Source: Arthrobacter pascens
Lineage (GTDB): Bacteria; Actinomycetota; Actinomycetes; Actinomycetales; Micrococcaceae
Direction of reading: 5' to 3'
DNA: 64,000 bases
Assembly (NCBI RefSeq): GCF_030815585.1
Contig: NZ_JAUSWY010000001.1
Span: forward strand, 3,844,001 to 3,908,000
Numbering within the stretch: position 1 is the stretch's first letter; every line of letters begins with the position of its first letter. The notes below the pieces were generated by a model. It was not told the DNA's origin and ran no database searches. It saw nothing but the letters and a program-made list of their open reading frames with translations. Position numbers and translations under genes: made by a program. Positions 3,131 to 50,411 of the stretch are shown here, one piece after another.

Positions 3131-4159
3131 ATGGCACATGACCGGGGGACCATACCTGTTCTGGACCTGAGCAGCGCACGCCAGCCAGACGGAACCTTCA
3201 GTCCGGATTTTATTGAGCAGCTCCGTGATGCCACCCACCGGGTGGGCTTCTTCCAGCTCACAGGCTACGGCGCCTCACCCGGACAGGCAGAGGGTCTCCT
3301 GGCAACCATCAAGCGTTTCTTCGACCTGCCCCTCGCAGAACGGATGAAGCTGGACAACCGGCTGTCACCCCATTTCCGTGGCTACACACGGATGGGCACC
3401 GAAGTCACCCAGGGCAGGGCGGACGCGCGGGAGCAGATCGACTACTCTCCGGACCGTGAACCGGTCCGGGAGTATCCCCGGGATCAGCCATACTGGCTCC
3501 TCCAGGGCCACAACATGTGGCCGGATGAGGCCCTGCCGGAGCTGGAGCCTGCCGCGATGGCCTGGGCAGGGCTGATGTCCAGGGTGGGGAGCGAGCTGCT
3601 CCGCGGCATCGCAGTATCCCTCCAACTGCCGGAGGACTACTTTGACGAACCGTTCCGGGACACACCCGCCTGGATGGGCAAGCTGGTCCATTACGTCGGC
3701 GGTGTGGTGGAGGCGGCCGGAGACCAGGGTGTCGGCTCCCACGCGGACTACGGTTTTGTGACCCTCCTCCTGCAGGACGCGGTGGGCGGCCTGGAGGTGC
3801 TGCCGCCTGGAGCAGACGAATGGGCGTCCGTGCAGCCCATTCCTGGCGCGCTGGTTGTCAACCTTGGCGAGATGCTGGAGGTTGCCACCGAGGGCTACCT
3901 GGCCGCCACCATCCACCGGGTCCAGGCACCTGCCCCCGGAGTGGACCGGTACTCTGTGCCGTTCTTCTGGTCGCCCCGTCTCGATGCGGTAATTGAGCCG
4001 GTGCCGTTGCCACCGGAGCTGAAGGCCCAGGCCCGCGGCATCTCCGACGACCCGTCCAACCCGATGCTCGCTTCGTTTGGGCTCAACATGCTCAAGGGCA
4101 GGATGCGCGCCCATCCGGATGTGACAGAGCGCCACTACCCGCAGCTGATGAAGCGTTGA
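3131..4159 (+). CDS. 2-oxoglutarate/Fe(II)-dependent oxygenase, isopenicillin-N-synthase family
   Basis: A 342-residue cytoplasmic oxygenase. The N-terminal DIOX_N part (residues 8-120) starts IPVLDLSSA and contains the GFFQLTGYG segment. The C-terminal double-stranded beta-helix carries the iron ligands His204 and Asp206 (SHADYG) and His262 (TIHRV), plus Arg273-x-Ser275 (RYSVPFF) for 2-oxoglutarate or substrate carboxylate. Family members hydroxylate, desaturate or ring-close small molecules using O2. The substrate cannot be predicted. There is no biosynthetic gene beside it, so a stand-alone catabolic or detoxifying role is as likely as a role in a natural product. Confidence 0.85.
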   Translation: MAHDRGTIPVLDLSSARQPDGTFSPDFIEQLRDATHRVGFFQLTGYGASPGQAEGLLATIKRFFDLPLAERMKLDNRLSPHFRGYTRMGTEVTQGRADAREQIDYSPDREPVREYPRDQPYWLLQGHNMWPDEALPELEPAAMAWAGLMSRVGSELLRGIAVSLQLPEDYFDEPFRDTPAWMGKLVHYVGGVVEAAGDQGVGSHADYGFVTLLLQDAVGGLEVLPPGADEWASVQPIPGALVVNLGEMLEVATEGYLAATIHRVQAPAPGVDRYSVPFFWSPRLDAVIEPVPLPPELKAQARGISDDPSNPMLASFGLNMLKGRMRAHPDVTERHYPQLMKR

Positions 4160-4621: not shown

Positions 4622-5416
4622 CTACCGGCTGAACTTCTTCAGCCAGCTTGCACCGGGATCGGCCTTGCCGGCCCTGGTCTTGGCTGCGGTAGCCGGCACT
4701 GTCATGGCGCCCTTCAATGTTCTCTCGGCGCTTTCAGCCAGGGTCCGGCGCAGCTGATTCTGTACTCTTCCCAGCTCCACCGCACCGTTTTTCTGCGTTT
4801 TGACAGCGTCCTCCTCAGTCTGGGACTCGGTTGCCTTCCTGGACTCTGCCGCTGTGCCGGCAGCGCTGTCCGGATCCTTGGCGGCAGCACCGCCGTCGTC
4901 CTTTTTGGCCGTGACTCCCGCCTCCGCAGCTGCCTGATCCTGCACTGCCCCTGTCAATGGCTGTTCCGGCAGCGCCGGCATGGACTGAACGGCGGGCGCG
5001 GGCTCATGCTGCGCCGTCGGTTGGGGGGCCGGCAGTAAGCCGGCGGTGCTGGCTGATGGACCCCCCGCGATGGTCCAGGAGGGAGCCCAGCCCTCTAACA
5101 TGTGCTGGACGGACATGCTGGTCTGCCGGCCCTGGCCTGATGCGCTGGCAGCAACGCCGGTGACACCAAAACCCATGCCTGCAACGACAGCCAGGCCAAC
5201 AACGGCGGCCCGGTGTTTGCGCAGCCAGCGCTGTCGTCCAAGCTCATGCGTGCCAGCCATCAAGGCAGCCAGTTGGGCGTTGGGGGTGGGCACCGGCAGG
5301 CACGCCAAGGTTCCCAAGGACAGCAGGGCGGCGCGGAGCTCGGTGGCCTGCGCCTGGCCAGCGTCGAGCAGCATCTCATCCACGGTCTTGCCCAGATAAT
5401 TGGCGTTGAAAGTCAT
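4622..5416 (-). CDS. Putative anti-sigma factor, single-pass membrane protein
   Basis: A 264-residue protein with a short cytoplasmic N-terminus, one membrane helix at about residues 70-91 (AVVGLAVVAGMGFGVTGVAA), and a long low-complexity Ala/Pro/Glu-rich outer part with acidic and basic stretches. It lacks a recognisable zinc anti-sigma HxxxCxxC motif. The assignment as anti-sigma factor rests on context: its ATG overlaps the stop of the sigma factor gene by four bases, the usual arrangement for ECF sigma and its membrane antagonist. The C-terminal region beyond residue 180 looks disordered or coiled. Function is inference. Confidence 0.55.
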   Translation of the reverse strand: MTFNANYLGKTVDEMLLDAGQAQATELRAALLSLGTLACLPVPTPNAQLAALMAGTHELGRQRWLRKHRAAVVGLAVVAGMGFGVTGVAASASGQGRQTSMSVQHMLEGWAPSWTIAGGPSASTAGLLPAPQPTAQHEPAPAVQSMPALPEQPLTGAVQDQAAAEAGVTAKKDDGGAAAKDPDSAAGTAAESRKATESQTEEDAVKTQKNGAVELGRVQNQLRRTLAESAERTLKGAMTVPATAAKTRAGKADPGASWLKKFSR

Positions 5417-5964
5417 GGCGCCACATATTCCTTTACTGCGGACTGCTCACGGAGTTTGGTCAAAGCACGGCGCTGGAGCTGTTTGACGGAGCCGGGGCTC
5501 TTTCCCATTACCGCGGCAACCTGGTCAACGGTGAGTCCGCCGATGAGGCGCAGTGTCAGCACTTCCCTCTGCTCGTCGGGCAGGCCTTGCAGGAGGTCCA
5601 GGACTTCCTTCGGCGAGAAACGCTGCAGGGCCTCTGCCTCGGCGGAGGAGTCCTCCCGCTGGTCCATTTCCGCCTCAAAGGACAGCTGCACAGGGGTGCG
5701 GCTTTGCCGTCTGTGATCGTCCACCAAGCGGGCATGCGCCACCGAAAAGATAAAGGTTCGCAGGCCAGGGATTCCGCCGCTGACGGTATCCAGCTTGGGA
5801 AGAATGGCGAGGAACACTTCCTGCATGACCGCCTCCGGATCTTCCACTCCGCGGGCTGTGAGATAGCCCAGGACCTGTGACGCATATGTTCGGTACACGA
5901 GGCTGAAGAGCTCTGGATTGCGGGCACCGGCCCGCAACACATCGTCTGTCAGCGCATCGGTCAC
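5413..5964 (-). CDS. ECF-type RNA polymerase sigma factor
   Basis: A 183-residue sigma-70 family protein. Region 2 spans about residues 18-85 (LVYRTYASQVLGYL, then DPEAVMQEVFLAILPKL, the core-binding and -10 helices). Region 4 spans about 115-175 (LLQGLPDEQREVLTLRLIGGLTVDQVAAVMGKSPGSVKQLQRRALTKLRE), a classic helix-turn-helix for the -35 element. There is no sigma region 1 or 3, which fits the ECF group. It is translationally coupled to the membrane protein downstream, its probable antagonist. Regulated promoters cannot be told from this window. Confidence 0.9.
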   Translation of the reverse strand: MTDALTDDVLRAGARNPELFSLVYRTYASQVLGYLTARGVEDPEAVMQEVFLAILPKLDTVSGGIPGLRTFIFSVAHARLVDDHRRQSRTPVQLSFEAEMDQREDSSAEAEALQRFSPKEVLDLLQGLPDEQREVLTLRLIGGLTVDQVAAVMGKSPGSVKQLQRRALTKLREQSAVKEYVAP

Positions 5965-6309
5965 GGACGTAGGGCTTTCGGTGAGGGGGACTTTGCTTGC
6001 TAAGTCTAGGGCCAGTTACGCCTTCGCGGAATGCCCTTGCCCAGCTAACTTTACCCACGGTAACCAGGCTGTCCGAACCAACGGCATCCGTCCCCGCTCC
6101 AAAAACCCTGCAGCCCGCGAGGCCTGCCGGGCATAAAAAGAGCCGGGCTGGAACGTGATGGGGGACAAGTTCCAGCCCGGCGCTTCATAGGGGTAATCGC
6201 TCCGGACGCCCCAAGGGTTACGCTCTGGCACAAACTTTTTGGACTTTATTTTTGGACGGGATTTTTGGCCGTGGCTGCGCGGCTTTGGACGGGCTGTGAG
6301 ACGCGGCGC
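5965..6309. other. Intergenic region between the sigma factor and DUF1508 genes
   Basis: 345 bases without a credible gene. The left part must carry the promoter of the minus-strand sigma factor gene. It contains the hairpin terminator at 6136-6181. The right part, 6234-6296, is T-rich and repeats TTTGGAC or TTTGGCC four times. I see no tRNA or recognisable riboswitch. Confidence 0.6.
6136..6181 (-). terminator. Rho-independent terminator, minus strand
   Basis: A perfect 13-bp stem: GCCGGGCTGGAAC at 6142-6154 pairs with 6169-6181 around a 14-base loop. Read on the minus strand it is followed by CTCTTTTT. It probably ends the transcript of the DUF1508 gene at 6645-6310. Confidence 0.8.
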
Positions 6310-6645
6310 TTATGCCGCGCCGGTCCAACGGGCCGTGGCTGCGGACCGGCATATTGCTTTGGGGAGGGCGAAGACCCGCAGGCTGTTAGCCGGTATGCGC
6401 TGGTCATCACAGGCCTGCGGAAACGGGTCTGGATCAGGTGAGGAGGGAAGATCCTGTTTGCCGGCTGGGCAAAGGTCGGTGATCAGCCCCATACCGGCGC
6501 ACTCGCGGACGGCGGCGATCCCGGCCACGGCAGCGGACTTGTCCTCGTAGGCCGCCGAAACCGCCATCACGGTTCCGTCCGCCGCCTTGAGTTGGAATCT
6601 GAAATGCGAGTCCACATCCATAAAGACTTCAAACATCCCGGCCAT
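6310..6645 (-). CDS. DUF1508 (YegP-like) protein
   Basis: A 111-residue protein whose first 60 residues form one DUF1508/YegP domain: FEVFMDVDSHFRFQLKAADGTVMAVSAAYEDKSAAVAGIAAVRE. The domain has a compact beta-beta-alpha fold and no proven function. The C-terminal 50 residues are low-complexity and unlike the family. The ATG at 6645 is chosen because ACCGGAGGGA lies seven bases upstream; an earlier in-frame GTG at 6693 lacks such a site. A second, shorter DUF1508 gene lies at 50208, so the window holds two paralogs. The gene stands alone and ends at the terminator near 6136. Confidence 0.75.
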   Translation of the reverse strand: MAGMFEVFMDVDSHFRFQLKAADGTVMAVSAAYEDKSAAVAGIAAVRECAGMGLITDLCPAGKQDLPSSPDPDPFPQACDDQRIPANSLRVFALPKAICRSAATARWTGAA

Positions 6646-6751
6646 AACAATCCCTCCGGTCTGCGGGCTCCTGTCCGGCAACATCTTCACCACCGAGCAG
6701 GCCTCGACGCACCTCTGCGTCCTTCTCCCGCGGGTCTGGTCGAACGATCCG

Positions 6752-6786
6752 TTGAGTCACCATGTGTAGTTGATTCAACATGTGTA
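6752..6786. repeat. Two 17-bp direct repeats, period 18
   Basis: TTGAGTCACCATGTGTA (6752-6768) and TTGATTCAACATGTGTA (6770-6786) differ at two positions and are one base apart. They lie about 110 bases upstream of the DUF1508 start at 6645 on the minus strand, so they could be tandem regulator sites. No protein can be assigned to them. Confidence 0.55.
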
Positions 6787-6854
6787 AACGAGTCTGTCGC
6801 CAGCGCGTGTGGCTCACAAGACCGGACGGGTTAACCCTGCGTAAAAAGGATGCA

Positions 6855-6898
6855 ACGACGGCGGCGGGCCGCCCTTCCGGGTGACCCGCCGCCGTCGT
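6855..6898 (-). terminator. Rho-independent terminator of purA
   Basis: A perfect 14-bp stem (6855-6868 with 6885-6898, arm ACGACGGCGGCGGG) with a 16-base loop. On the minus strand it is followed by TGCATCCTTTTT. It lies 14 bases after the purA stop. Confidence 0.85.
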
Positions 6899-10767: not shown

Positions 10768-11190
10768 TTATTTGGCTTCGATGGCTGCTTTCGCTGCCGG
10801 GTCCGAATCGTTGAGGAACTTCTCGATGCGTTCCGGCTCGTCGGCCTCGCCGATGGCCGCCGACGCACGGCCCAGCGAATAAAGGGCCCGCAGGAAGCCA
10901 CGGTTGGGTTCGTGCTCCCACGGGATGGGACCCACGCCGCGCCAGCCGTTGCGGCGCAGCGAGTCCAGCCCGCGGTGGTAGCCCACGCGCGAGTAGGCGT
11001 AGGAATCGATGGTGCGGCCCTCAGCCCACGCCTCCTCCGCGAGTACGGCCCACAGGAGCGAGGACGTGGGGTGCTTCTCCACCAGATCGAGTGCTTCCTG
11101 GCCGGCCTCCAGCTGCTCGTAGACCTCAGTCTCGGCCGGCAGGAGTGTGGGCTCGGGGCCCATCAGGTTCTTGCGGAACTCGTCGGACAT
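10768..11190 (-). CDS. DUF3151 family protein
   Basis: A 140-residue actinobacterial protein of the DUF3151 family, no known function. The family pattern is clear: RKNLMGPEPTLLP at the start, then SSLLWAVLAEEAW, SYAYSRVGYHRGLDSLRRNGWRG, and VPW-like PIPWEHEPNRGFLRALYSLGRASAAIGE. The ATG at 11190 is chosen from the family start; the open frame continues upstream inside fba. It follows fba by a single base, so the two are surely co-transcribed. This neighbourhood is typical of actinobacteria and may point to a role linked to central carbon metabolism, which is only inference. Confidence 0.85.
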   Translation of the reverse strand: MSDEFRKNLMGPEPTLLPAETEVYEQLEAGQEALDLVEKHPTSSLLWAVLAEEAWAEGRTIDSYAYSRVGYHRGLDSLRRNGWRGVGPIPWEHEPNRGFLRALYSLGRASAAIGEADEPERIEKFLNDSDPAAKAAIEAK

Positions 11191-11191
11191 G

Positions 11192-12211
<1,020 letters not shown>

Positions 12212-47384: not shown

Positions 47385-48320
47385 TCAGGTGCCTCCATAC
47401 CGGCGATACCATTCCACCGCTTCCGCCGAAAAACCGAAGCGTCCCGGCCGGGCGCCCGTCAGCGTCCAGAGTCTGTCGGACTGATACCAGTGGTCCTGCG
47501 ACAGCAGCGCCACCTGATGGGCGGTGAAACCGCTCTTGAGCAGGAGCGCGACGGAGCTCGCTGAGTCGGTCCGGGCTGACCATTGGGGACCGGTGATGCG
47601 CTCTTCTATGTGGCGCAGGATCTGCCCCACGGTCACCGGTATCGGTTCAGCGGCGTGGAAAGTCCCGCTCGTTCGTGTCCCCGTTGTGAGCAGCCCGGCG
47701 ATCAGGCGGCCCAGGTGTTCAACACTGATGACGGAGAGTTTGGAATCTCCGTCGCCTACAGGACCGCCCAGGATGCTCGCCATGCGGATCAGGGACGGGA
47801 TAAACCACCTGTCCCCAGGGCCGTAGATCAAGCCGGTGCGGACGACAGTACCGCCAGCCTCCAGGACGAGTTGATCGGCGGATGCCCGGCTGCGGCTCAC
47901 TGCCGATTCAGGCCGGCACGGAAGTGAGGTCTCCGTCTCGCCACGGTGTGGTCCTGTCCCGTAGACGGAGGTGGTACTGAGCTGGACGAACCCCGGGACG
48001 GTGCAGCTGGCGGCGGCTTCGAGCAGGTTCCGCGTCCCTTCATGGTTAACCAGGGCTGCCTTCGAAGCGTCGGATCCAGTGTAGGAGGCAGCGTTGACCA
48101 CGAGGTCCGCCCCGCGCATCGCTGTCTCAAGCGTCGCACGGTCGGTGATGTCGCCTGCGTATATGCTGGCTTCACTGTTCTTTATGAGGACGGTCGTCCG
48201 CCTTGTCAGGACGCGAAGGTTGATTTCTCCCCTGGCAGCGGCAGCTTGAAGAACGCCCTGGCCGATGAAACCGGACGCTCCGACCAGCAGGACGGTCGGC
48301 CGTGGGACACTCCCCTTCAT
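47385..48320 (-). CDS. NAD-dependent epimerase/dehydratase-like protein with altered catalytic motif
   Basis: A 311-residue extended-SDR protein. The nucleotide motif is VLLVGASGFIGQGVLQA at residues 10-26 and STTSVYG carries the usual catalytic Ser/Thr region. At the YxxxK position the sequence reads VSRSR (Val141, Arg145), so the classical catalytic Tyr and Lys appear to be replaced. RTGLIYGPGD follows as in the family. The gene is divergent from the butyrolactone-receptor-type regulator at 48416. In streptomycetes an SDR reductase gene often lies beside afsA and its receptor and finishes butyrolactone synthesis. The same role here is inference, weakened by the motif change. Confidence 0.7.
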   Translation of the reverse strand: MKGSVPRPTVLLVGASGFIGQGVLQAAAARGEINLRVLTRRTTVLIKNSEASIYAGDITDRATLETAMRGADLVVNAASYTGSDASKAALVNHEGTRNLLEAAASCTVPGFVQLSTTSVYGTGPHRGETETSLPCRPESAVSRSRASADQLVLEAGGTVVRTGLIYGPGDRWFIPSLIRMASILGGPVGDGDSKLSVISVEHLGRLIAGLLTTGTRTSGTFHAAEPIPVTVGQILRHIEERITGPQWSARTDSASSVALLLKSGFTAHQVALLSQDHWYQSDRLWTLTGARPGRFGFSAEAVEWYRRYGGT

Positions 48321-48357
48321 AGTTCGGACTCACTTGGGGGACCAACTTCTGCCATGT

Positions 48358-48390
48358 CCGGACGGTCCGGGCTAGGGGTACCGCGGGTAC
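48358..48390. promoter_or_regulatory. Two dyads in the divergent promoter of the receptor gene
   Basis: CCGGACGGTCCGG at 48358-48370 and GTACCGCGGGTAC at 48378-48390. The second resembles an ARE core (ACCG...GGT) but is shorter than the sites near afsA. It may be an autoregulatory site for the receptor. Confidence 0.4.
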
Positions 48391-48415
48391 ACACATCTAA
48401 TGAAAGGTCGCTGTT

Positions 48416-49087
48416 ATGCCTCTGCAGGAACGCGCCAGGGCTACAAAGGCGTCCATTGTGGAAGGCGCGGCCGCGGTGTTCGAAGAGATCGGCTACGGCA
48501 ACGCAAGCCTTAGCAGCGTCGCCGAGCGGGCAGGTGTGACCAAGGGCGCCCTGTATTTTCATTTCAAATCCAAAGAGGACCTCGCGCTGGCGGTGATCGA
48601 AGCCCAGCATGCCCTGGCCACCCAAGAAGGCGAGCGGATCGCCGGGCTGGGCCGCAGTGCCCTGTCCACCATCATTTTGACGTGCGCCAGTTTCGGGCGG
48701 CTGCTGGTTCAGGAGCCGGTGGTCCGTGCCGGCGTCCGGCTGACGCTTGAGGCATCCGCCTTCGGGCACTCGGTGACCGCTCCCTATGAGGACTGGATCC
48801 GAACCATGGAGTTCCTGACCCGCCAGGGCCAGTCCGAGGGTGAAATCGACGAGGCGTTGGATACCGCTGCCTTCGCCCGATACCTCGTTGCGTCGTTTAC
48901 CGGCGTGCAGATGGTGTCCGGCGTCCTCACGCATCGTGCTGATGTGCTGGAGCGGATCGAGGACATGTGGTCGATCCTCTTGCCGGCGATGGTTCCCGAG
49001 ACCAAACTGGCTGAGTTCCTGGATCTTGCCCGCCTGGGCGTTCATGAGGCAGATCCTGCCGAGGGCCGTTCGGGGCATTCAGTGTGA
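48416..49087 (+). CDS. TetR-family gamma-butyrolactone receptor-type repressor (ArpA/ScbR-like)
   Basis: A 223-residue TetR regulator. The DNA-binding domain spans residues 8-55 (TKASIVEGAAAVFEEIGYGNASLSSVAERAGVTKGALYFHFKSKEDLALAVI), with the KGALYFHF pattern shared by butyrolactone receptors. Trp127 in APYEDWI is the position of the ligand-pocket Trp known in CprB and ArpA. It is convergent with the afsA-like gene, whose stop lies 161 bases inside its 3' end. Expected role: bind ARE sites upstream of afsA and release them when the signal accumulates. The ligand itself is not known. Confidence 0.82.
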   Translation: MPLQERARATKASIVEGAAAVFEEIGYGNASLSSVAERAGVTKGALYFHFKSKEDLALAVIEAQHALATQEGERIAGLGRSALSTIILTCASFGRLLVQEPVVRAGVRLTLEASAFGHSVTAPYEDWIRTMEFLTRQGQSEGEIDEALDTAAFARYLVASFTGVQMVSGVLTHRADVLERIEDMWSILLPAMVPETKLAEFLDLARLGVHEADPAEGRSGHSV

Positions 49088-50012
49088 ACCGGCAGCTGAG
49101 CTCGACGCAGACGGCTCCGTCCACGCTGATGGCAGCAGTAGCCCACCCCTTTACCTGATCTTCAATGACGACGGTCCGCAAAGAGACAGACGCATCATCG
49201 TCGAGTTCGACGATTTTCAAGAATGAGGCTTCGAAGGCCTGAAAATCCAGGTCGGGAGCCGTCATCCGGACCCGAAGGGCCTGCCGGATTCCTTCCACCA
49301 TGAGAAGACCCGGAACGTGGTCCAGCGGATGGTCAAAGAACGTGGGGTTTGTCCCGTCAACGTGCAGGGGCCAGGTATCTGCGGGACCACCTGCGCCAAT
49401 GGCGACGTTGTGGGAAAACCGGTGCCCCACCTGTTCCGGCGGCAAAGGCACGGTCTGCGGTGGCTGGCCATCGGTGGCGGACCTCAGCCGCAGCCGGGCA
49501 TAGCTGGCGGGGTCCACGAGCCGCGCTCCGGCGGCCCCCGTGGCGATGGGATGACCGCCGACGTCGAAGCGTGCCTCGACCCGAAAAACGACCGGTCCGC
49601 GTGAGTTCCGTTGTGAGACATTCACGTCGAGGAGCATGTTGACTTCTGTCGGAGTGCCCGGATCGCCGGCGTGGCCGCCGAGAGCCTGGACGGACATGTC
49701 CGGCATCAGGAAGACCTGCCCCAAGGGCACGCCCTCCATTGCGTGGGCAACCAGGATGGTAGCTTGCCGCAGGGATTCAGCGATCAGTGCTGTGTCGTAC
49801 GCTCCAGGCCTGGAACAAAAGAAGGGGTGCAGCCGAGGCCACTGTGCAGTGGCCAGGTACCGGCCCTCACCGATCCTGCGGATATCGGTCATAAAAACCT
49901 CGGAAATGGCCCGGCGATGCACCAGTTCACGGGGGACCGTGCTGCTGAACGAGTGCCTCCGGTCGGCCCATTGCGATCGGCCGGCGTCGAACTTCCGGCG
50001 ATCAAAGCGCAT
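48927..50012 (-). CDS. AfsA-type gamma-butyrolactone synthase with two hotdog repeats
   Basis: A 361-residue protein with the duplicated AfsA hotdog domain. First repeat motif: HPFFCSRPGAYDTALIAESLRQA at residues 62-84. Second: FFDHPLDHVPGLLMVEGIRQA at 225-245. AfsA joins a beta-ketoacyl chain to dihydroxyacetone phosphate, the key step of A-factor-type butyrolactone synthesis. The ATG at 50012 has GGAAGGGGG upstream; a GTG five codons earlier is less likely. The last 40 residues are low-complexity and run antisense into the receptor gene, so the functional domain ends near residue 315. Two ARE-like sites lie upstream. Confidence 0.85.
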   Translation of the reverse strand: MRFDRRKFDAGRSQWADRRHSFSSTVPRELVHRRAISEVFMTDIRRIGEGRYLATAQWPRLHPFFCSRPGAYDTALIAESLRQATILVAHAMEGVPLGQVFLMPDMSVQALGGHAGDPGTPTEVNMLLDVNVSQRNSRGPVVFRVEARFDVGGHPIATGAAGARLVDPASYARLRLRSATDGQPPQTVPLPPEQVGHRFSHNVAIGAGGPADTWPLHVDGTNPTFFDHPLDHVPGLLMVEGIRQALRVRMTAPDLDFQAFEASFLKIVELDDDASVSLRTVVIEDQVKGWATAAISVDGAVCVELSCRFTLNAPNGPRQDLPHERPGGQDPGTQPVWSREPSPARGSTTCPRSAPAHQHDA

Positions 50013-50040
50013 GGTTCCCCCTTCCACAACTGACTGGTGG

Positions 50041-50068
50041 AAAAAGCATACCGACCGGATGGATTGTT
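50041..50068. promoter_or_regulatory. ARE-like operator 1 upstream of the afsA-type gene
   Basis: Contains GCATACCGACCGGATGG, matching the ARE pattern (CATACCG then CGG-ATGG) bound by butyrolactone receptors. It lies 29-56 bases before the afsA-type start, where it would block transcription. Confidence 0.65.
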
Positions 50069-50107
50069 AACCGATGGAGGACGCCGCGATTCACAGGCAA
50101 CCTCATG

Positions 50108-50133
50108 ATAAACATACCGGTCGCATGGTTTAT
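50108..50133. promoter_or_regulatory. ARE-like operator 2 upstream of the afsA-type gene
   Basis: Centre ACATACCGGTCGCATGGT flanked by ATAA and TTAT, an extended pseudo-palindrome very close to known ARE sites. It is also 75 bases before the divergent DUF1508 gene at 50208, which it could control. Confidence 0.7.
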
Positions 50134-50207
50134 TGTTGTTAGCAGCAGTATTACCGTCGGAAGGGACATCTCCGCCGGATAAACAGCGACCTAGAGCAAG
50201 GACTGCA

Positions 50208-50411
50208 GTGGCGGGCGTTTTTGAAGTTATCCAGGACAATGACGGACCGCTGCCGTTCAGATTCCTCCTGCGGGGAAGCGACGGTGCAGTCGTGGCAGTT
50301 TCCCCACAGCTCGGGAGCATCACAGCCGTGAAGGCAGGAATCAGGGCGGTCAGGGAAAGCGCGGCCAGCGGGGCCGTTGTGGACCTGACCGACGAGGCAG
50401 ACCCGAGCTGA
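50208..50411 (+). CDS. DUF1508 (YegP-like) protein, short paralog
   Basis: A 67-residue protein consisting of one DUF1508 domain: AGVFEVIQDNDGPLPFRFLLRGSDGAVVAVSPQLGSITAVKAGIRAVRESA. The GTG at 50208 is chosen because the domain begins directly after it; the frame is open from 50133. It is similar in plan to the N-terminal part of the protein at 6310 (FEVF...FRFQLKAADGTVMAVS). It is divergent from the afsA-type gene across the two ARE-like sites, so butyrolactone control is possible. Function unknown. Confidence 0.7.
   Translation: MAGVFEVIQDNDGPLPFRFLLRGSDGAVVAVSPQLGSITAVKAGIRAVRESAASGAVVDLTDEADPS

Follow-up and report, generated by a model that had tools for sequence, protein, structure and literature searches.

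The window analysed here is a stretch of 64,000 nucleotides from Arthrobacter pascens (assembly GCF_030815585.1, contig NZ_JAUSWY010000001.1, positions 3,844,001 to 3,908,000 of the forward strand), and the locus under study lies at its positions 47385 to 50411. The window carries a complete gamma-butyrolactone (GBL) gene set of a known kind: an AfsA/ScbA synthase, a ScbR-family receptor and a GblE-type short-chain dehydrogenase/reductase (SDR), referred to here as gblA, gblR and gblE. Two operators of the autoregulatory element (ARE) type lie between gblA and a divergent gene for a small DUF1508 protein, and an RNA element that accompanies the receptor in many relatives occurs elsewhere in the same genome. 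Most work on GBL signalling concerns Streptomyces, in which it governs antibiotics and sporulation; Arthrobacter are soil bacteria that do not sporulate.

Genes and operators of the locus

The features of the locus, in window coordinates, are the following.

47385..48320, minus strand: gblE-like extended SDR of the NAD epimerase/dehydratase family, 311 aa; Pfam Epimerase 92 bits, also 3-beta-HSD family
48416..49087, plus strand: gblR, ScbR-family autoregulator receptor (TetR), 223 aa; Trp127 kept
48927-50027, minus strand: longest frame of afsA/gblA, AfsA/ScbA-type synthase with two Pfam AfsA hotdog stretches
48927..50012, minus strand: gblA from its probable ATG start; start at 50012 read from sequence, behind GGAAGGGGG
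48927..49087: tail-to-tail overlap of gblA and gblR, 161 bp; the gblA portion is a weakly constrained C-terminal tail
50047..50062: proximal ARE CATACCGACCGGATGG, exact motif match, upstream of gblA
50113..50128: distal ARE CATACCGGTCGCATGG, exact motif match; kept in locus L133 within an otherwise diverged spacer
50126..50154, plus strand: putative promoter TGGTTT-N17-TATTAC toward the DUF1508 gene, read from sequence, with a -35 that runs into the edge of the distal ARE
50208..50411, plus strand: small DUF1508 protein of about 67 aa if started at GTG 50208; its gene is divergent from gblA and is a candidate direct target

Curated family models bear out the gene identities that an earlier note had proposed for this DNA. 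In the AfsA protein, for which both hotdog repeats had been claimed, Pfam AfsA matches two stretches, and the NCBIfam ScbA/BarX equivalog NF041195 gives 242 bits (cut-off 200); GblR scores 197 bits with the ScbR_bind_reg equivalog NF041196 (cut-off 150). The top PDB sequence matches of GblR are 5xaz and 5xay (gamma-butyrolactone receptor protein), 6srn, CprB and AvaR1. Its residue 127, which the note had placed in the ligand pocket, is a Trp that aligns with a Trp of 5xaz, and the conserved Trp of ScbR-type receptors is ligand-binding (PMC7480387). The gene described as SDR-like does encode an SDR, of the extended epimerase/dehydratase family; a GblE-specific model was absent among its NCBIfam matches, and the GblE label combines the SDR family with the position beside gblR. 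Pfam DUF1508 matches the product of the divergent gene at 24.5 bits (gathering score 22; scan of the longer frame 50133-50411) and its orthologue in L133 at 24.7 bits. A single AfsA and a single ScbR-family receptor exceed the curated cut-offs in the window's genome. As to the remark that no antibiotic cluster is adjacent, the Pfam scan covered the ten proteins around the locus, and no wider search was made.

Overlaps of gblA and gblR at their 3' ends recur in the three nearest loci, L133, L127 and L134, with lengths of 155, 152 and 152 bp. The ratio of nonsynonymous to synonymous substitution rates (dN/dS) over the last 50 AfsA codons is 0.91 and 0.81 in two pairs, and over the last 50 gblR codons 0.54 and 0.91; this weak constraint disfavours the AfsA tail as a functional domain. 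The overlap is best regarded as a by-product, which may bring about antisense coupling. For S. coelicolor, antisense RNA has been reported from the divergent scbA/scbR pair (PMC3765725).

Both operators proposed in the earlier note are exact matches and lie between afsA and the divergent DUF1508 gene; with a broader ARE motif, they are the only perfect matches in the 4.73-Mb genome. L133 keeps just one half-site of the proximal ARE and keeps the DUF1508 promoter block, with a spacer of 18 bp. A half-site of the window AREs presumably resembles the ArpA half-site. Compared with the 18-nt S. filipinensis consensus, the distal ARE has 2/18 mismatches and the proximal ARE more than two. The form AAnCCrTnCGaCCGGTATGcTT is found upstream of gblA in 10/23 cassette loci (the window included) whose spacers are otherwise diverged, and the ARE core form CGaCCGGTATG is part of the upstream gblA site in those ten; the remaining cassette loci, mainly of the other subclade, do not have the long form upstream of gblA. 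At a greater distance upstream of gblA, four loci (L129, L130, L113, L119) have another palindrome of operator-like form, roughly AAACAAG.CGG.CG.CCGGTTT.

A wider regulon was sought by ARE pattern and yielded no further targets, since the matches equal those of the reversed control: genome-wide, the broader motif at up to two mismatches has 79 matches and the reversed pattern 86. At three mismatches the window alone contains 15 matches against 11.7 expected, which is background, and the first ARE pattern has 786 genome-wide against 616 in the control, a small excess. No ARE of the searched type lies in the gblR-gblE spacer of the window. A model of nine gblA-upstream ARE sites (R1), with both window AREs among its training sites, returned the gblA promoter as top match in each of 10 genomes, by construction, with E 3.6e-4 for the window's proximal ARE; among the 150 candidates scored out of 488-626 first-look candidates per genome, its next-best matches were near chance, except one at E 0.09 in genome G016.

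Spread, ancestry and selection of the cassette

The comparison covered 198 Arthrobacter genomes (the genus sample) and 395 genomes of the family in 32 genera. Gene calling by codon score served for neighbouring genes only, as it overlooked many of the gbl genes. AfsA exceeds its curated cut-off in 23/198 genomes of the genus, with any match in 28/198, and in 15/395 of the family sample, where any match is found in 23/395 and in 8/32 genera. All 23 genus genomes with AfsA over the cut-off, including that of the window, carry gblA, gblR and gblE together, with gblR convergent to gblA; cassettes of this kind occur, for example, in A. cupressi, A. silvisoli, A. terricola, A. bambusae and A. horti, and the Frigoribacterium and Micromonospora loci examined likewise hold the three genes together. 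The nearest locus, L133, shares the flanks as well, in the order ACAD, DUF1508, gblA, gblR, gblE, CSP. The full cassette is absent around the weaker AfsA relatives L136-L140 and L142, it is rearranged in L135, and L051 (Arthrobacter sp. 35W) has no gblR between gblA and gblE.

In a quick AfsA tree, which left out L152, 36 Micrococcaceae rows are grouped with a Shimodaira-Hasegawa approximate likelihood-ratio support (SH-aLRT) of 90, and in a quick receptor tree 32 Micrococcaceae rows are grouped with a support of 86, in both cases apart from Streptomyces and Micromonospora. Outside these groups are more divergent relatives from the family, and owing to several long branches the placements are uncertain. 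As far as such comparison can tell, the cassette order gblA>, <gblR, gblE> belongs to a Micrococcaceae lineage and is not a recent import from Streptomyces. The view of the earlier note that the genes would be unexpected in an Arthrobacter-type bacterium does not survive the 23 genus genomes, the other Micrococcaceae genera and the Micrococcaceae AfsA group. Their presence in the genus is moreover already in print, since antiSMASH butyrolactone clusters have been reported in two Arthrobacter genomes (PMC5793183, PMC9228311).

The cassette genes have dN/dS values of 0.16-0.29 in nine comparisons, and against the closest locus, L133, the values are 0.19 for gblA and 0.25 for gblE. The cassette locus is maintained by purifying selection, and the decayed remnant that the earlier note had considered as a possible outcome is contradicted by these values.

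Two side observations concern relatives. In locus L141 (G131:C1:4377216-4378044) the AfsA gene is in pieces with internal stops beside an intact receptor and RNA element, apparently a synthase being lost. In L120, an additional TetR, which reaches 134 bits in the ScbR model (cut-off 150), and a classical SDR lie upstream of gblA at 5417-6890, with ARE-like sites near both; the pair resembles a pseudo-receptor plus ketoreductase, and a second TetR upstream of gblA is also present in L115, L117, L121, L122, L123 and L125 of one Arthrobacter subclade.

A putative structured RNA element beside the receptor

In another Arthrobacter subclade, an ARE behind gblE shares sequence with the -35 of a promoter-like stretch, downstream of which there is a hairpin and not a gene. 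In the relatives such RNA elements are situated either behind gblE, which the element follows directly in L043, or divergently to the receptor gene. Four genomes of two other genera in the family sample (G215, G265, G441, G447) have the element 1.7-1.9 kb from gblA on the same contig. Fifteen aligned copies have GGGGGGAGGTGCGG in common, and the search model built from them matches 78/198 genus genomes at E<=0.05. Since the initial elements were chosen by exact string and the 30 elements analysed are the best-scoring loci among the matches returned, diverged copies are missing. Rfam at gathering scores gave no family at the hairpin in L120, L115, L043 and L118 and none in the window, and a literature search, limited in depth, turned up no account of small-RNA control by a GBL receptor.

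The promoters of these 30 elements contain the exact S. filipinensis ARE consensus (PMC7480387) in 23 cases and the consensus with one mismatch in seven, against 0/966 control windows at one mismatch or fewer. The control of the position weight matrix contained the operators themselves. Promoter-like hexamers are present in 29/30; between the expected start and the point where the inner stem ends there are 75-82 nt in most cases and 70-103 nt overall. The outer stem has a mean of 7.8 bp, where the largest of 200 null means is 4.5; its pairing is kept while the letters change, and there is an unpaired G-run on one side. The covariation score of the inner helix was reached by 0/500 shuffles.

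Strong matches of the element go with the receptor. The receptor exceeds its cut-off in 67/198 genus genomes, against 23/198 for the synthase, and the element at E<=1e-6 occurs in 35 genomes, all of which have the receptor. After removal of the 13 model-building genomes the receptor is present in 22/22 genomes with the element versus 54/185 (Fisher p 4e-14, genomes treated as independent). The tally took 70 of the 78 matched genomes, leaving out eight with a best E of 0.01-0.05, and is complete up to 0.01. Receptor and element are adjacent in 34/35, either divergent within 600 bp or about 1.1 kb apart; the sole exception is the window's genome, where they are 3.8 Mb apart.

Many receptors have no synthase to go with them. 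Among the 67 receptor genomes, 44 are without a synthase over the cut-off and 40 without any AfsA match at E<=0.001, so that some 60-66% of the sampled Arthrobacter receptor genomes are without a recognisable or full-scoring synthase; in many of these the receptor still has the RNA next to it. In a quick receptor tree, 21 receptors with no gblA linked to them are spread over three places (row L268, labelled orphan and situated beside an AfsA below the cut-off, is outside the 21). Retention of receptor and RNA where the synthase is missing suggests that these hosts may respond to signals that other organisms produce.

In each of three receptor-only loci that were inspected (L260 3468-4674, L263 2974-4220, L265 3071-4254), receptor and RNA are enclosed by two tRNA-Ala(GGC) genes spaced about 1.1 kb from each other, and the pair looks like a small cassette bounded by a tRNA repeat. 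Locus L114 has, behind gblE, an ARE-like site that precedes a gene for a cytidine/deoxycytidylate deaminase family protein (PF00383, 51.6 bits; 5221-5691, minus strand) instead of the RNA; the same Arthrobacter locus contains an Rfam match to 5_ureB_sRNA at 80.8 bits (10969-11258, minus strand).

The copy in the window's own genome lies outside the window.

G000:C1:105379-105445: RNA element, model match, between a MerR/HspR-like frame and an aldolase-like frame (both read from translations)

This 105-kb RNA has an E of 7.2e-10 with the model built without it and of 6.6e-7 with a broader model that contains it. Its operator, AAACCGGCTGAAAGGTTT (105301-105319), overlaps the promoter-like hexamers TTGTTT-N17-TAGACT and is the only match of the operator pattern in the genome at up to one mismatch; the element has kept the operator, the promoter spacing, the length (79 nt) and the hairpin. 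L118 and L120, both with the RNA at their loci, share the recognition-helix segment of GblR, VTKGALYFHFKSKEDLALAVI, without any change. Given the lone operator match and the shared recognition helix, I propose, tentatively and at somewhat less than an even chance, that the window's GblR controls the 105-kb RNA in trans. Within the window, the hairpin search gave a single weak match at 3335-3384 (13.3 bits, E 0.42), taken as chance. For the controlled traits, which the earlier note had left open, the field can be reduced to the afsA/DUF1508 spacer and this unlinked RNA, the latter no more than a candidate.

A proposed switch, its rivals and known systems

The locus is probably an intact, selected GBL autoinducer switch whose targets are gblA, the DUF1508 gene and, as a candidate, the unlinked RNA. 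By analogy with the family, GblA would condense a beta-ketoacyl thioester with a C3 unit, and GblE together with unlinked enzymes would finish the lactone. At the two AREs, GblR would keep gblA and the divergent DUF1508 gene repressed; the signal, once it had built up, would release GblR, giving positive feedback. In much of the lineage, an output of the receptor appears to be a small structured RNA, presumably transcribed from the ARE-containing promoter, and the window's GblR is the only family member over the cut-off that would be available to control the 105-kb RNA. The description of a butyrolactone signalling locus has good support from curated family models, synteny, operators and purifying selection, while its unexpectedness in Arthrobacter is given up. 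A broader proposal, for and against which I find the case evenly balanced, is that an ARE-controlled RNA of about 90 nt is a widespread receptor output of the Micrococcaceae, that synthase-less genomes may be listeners, and that the window's module is split and joined in trans.

Several results weigh against these proposals. A strict sigma-70 consensus scan found zero promoters in the locus, and beyond the gblA spacer ARE matches are not above the control. The co-occurrence p-values are too small, related species not being independent, and at E<=1e-4 seven of 51 RNA matches fall in genomes without a receptor over the cut-off. When 20 receptor genomes were re-searched with the broader RNA model, 16 had no match at E<=0.5, among them G016, G062, G049, G109 and G120, which have window-type cassettes; since such genomes are without the RNA, the 105-kb copy could be the relic of a lost receptor. 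Its ARE, too, has one mismatch, at a conserved C. These last points favour a closed loop, in which GblR regulates only gblA and the DUF1508 gene and the 105-kb RNA is a relic, constitutive or under another regulator. Perfect gblA-type AREs are confined to the gblA/DUF1508 spacer, the cassettes without RNA include the nearest ones (G016, G062, G049), and four genomes with AfsA whose cassette receptors group with the window's (G034, G084, G166, G179) keep the RNA beside a second receptor. A closed loop leaves unaccounted for, however, the preserved operator, spacing, length and hairpin of the 105-kb element, and it must contend with a receptor segment equal to that of L118 and L120 and with a genome that has no second receptor over the cut-off; it is a serious contender that falls somewhat short of an even chance.

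The nature of the hairpin itself may be questioned, the evidence for RNA structure being mixed. In the inner helix 8/12 pairs are invariant and two pairs do not form in 8 and 13 of the 25 sequences, its count of further pair types was reached by 177/500 shuffles, single-sequence folding z-scores are only -1.2 to -2.5, mildly better than shuffles, and RNAalifold finds a double change in 1/16 pairs. A nearly invariant, palindromic inner stem could be a terminator without a U-run, or a DNA site, instead of a functional small RNA. This is rather unlikely, given that the hairpin has its own ARE and promoter-like hexamers at a near-constant distance, that the outer stem persists through letter changes beside a one-sided unpaired G-run, and that the element is present without a nearby gblE or tRNA in L256 and without a tRNA in L043. 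Improbable, in turn, is a system that mainly detects lactones of neighbouring actinomycetes while its synthase makes little or no signal: the receptor genomes without synthase and the three tree places of unlinked receptors would fit it, but the window's gblA is complete, has a dN/dS of 0.19 and has conserved AREs in its promoter region. A recent transfer from Streptomyces without a settled role would agree with the patchy spread (23/198) and with a G+C content at third codon positions of 0.73-0.75 in the three cassette genes, below the 0.80-0.87 of four neighbour genes measured; the separate Micrococcaceae groups in both trees, a gene order unlike that of the Streptomyces loci examined and the flanks shared with L133 make it very improbable.

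On the preferred reading, that of a GBL autoinducer switch, the locus offers a selected GBL system, with few clear operators, in a host where such systems have received little study. What appears to be new is the receptor-RNA module together with the many receptors without a synthase, both of which emerged from the comparison of genomes. If receptors indeed control a small RNA and persist where the synthase is missing, GBLs would serve as a broader language of the soil, in which some hear but do not speak.

Among known systems, SfbR/SfbR2 of S. filipinensis provides the 18-nt ARE consensus, derived from ten footprinted regions, that fits the RNA promoters of the relatives; the available excerpt mentions no small-RNA target (PMC7480387). 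The scbA-scbR locus of S. coelicolor and the afsA-arpA locus of S. griseus have the synthase and receptor families and ARE-type operators in common with the window. The order of the genes is another one. In S. coelicolor scbA and scbR point away from each other and their 5' ends overlap (PMC3765725), whereas gblA and gblR of the window converge with overlapping 3' ends; a divergent synthase-receptor pair is also what the Streptomyces loci examined have, and gblR of the window instead lies between gblA and gblE, as in Rhodococcus and Micromonospora. No GblE is tabulated for S. coelicolor or S. griseus in the excerpt of PMC5735094. The same source describes the gblA-gblR-gblE cluster of Rhodococcus jostii RHA1, a single copy whose flanking genes are not conserved between species. 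RHA1 belongs to another host family, and a signal has been shown in Rhodococcus (PMC5735094); that of the window locus is a predicted one. The likeness is one of gene content and order, the orientation of gblR in RHA1 being given only as 'divergently oriented' and that in the window being convergent; the three gene types are the same, and in both gblR is flanked by gblA and gblE (PMC5735094).

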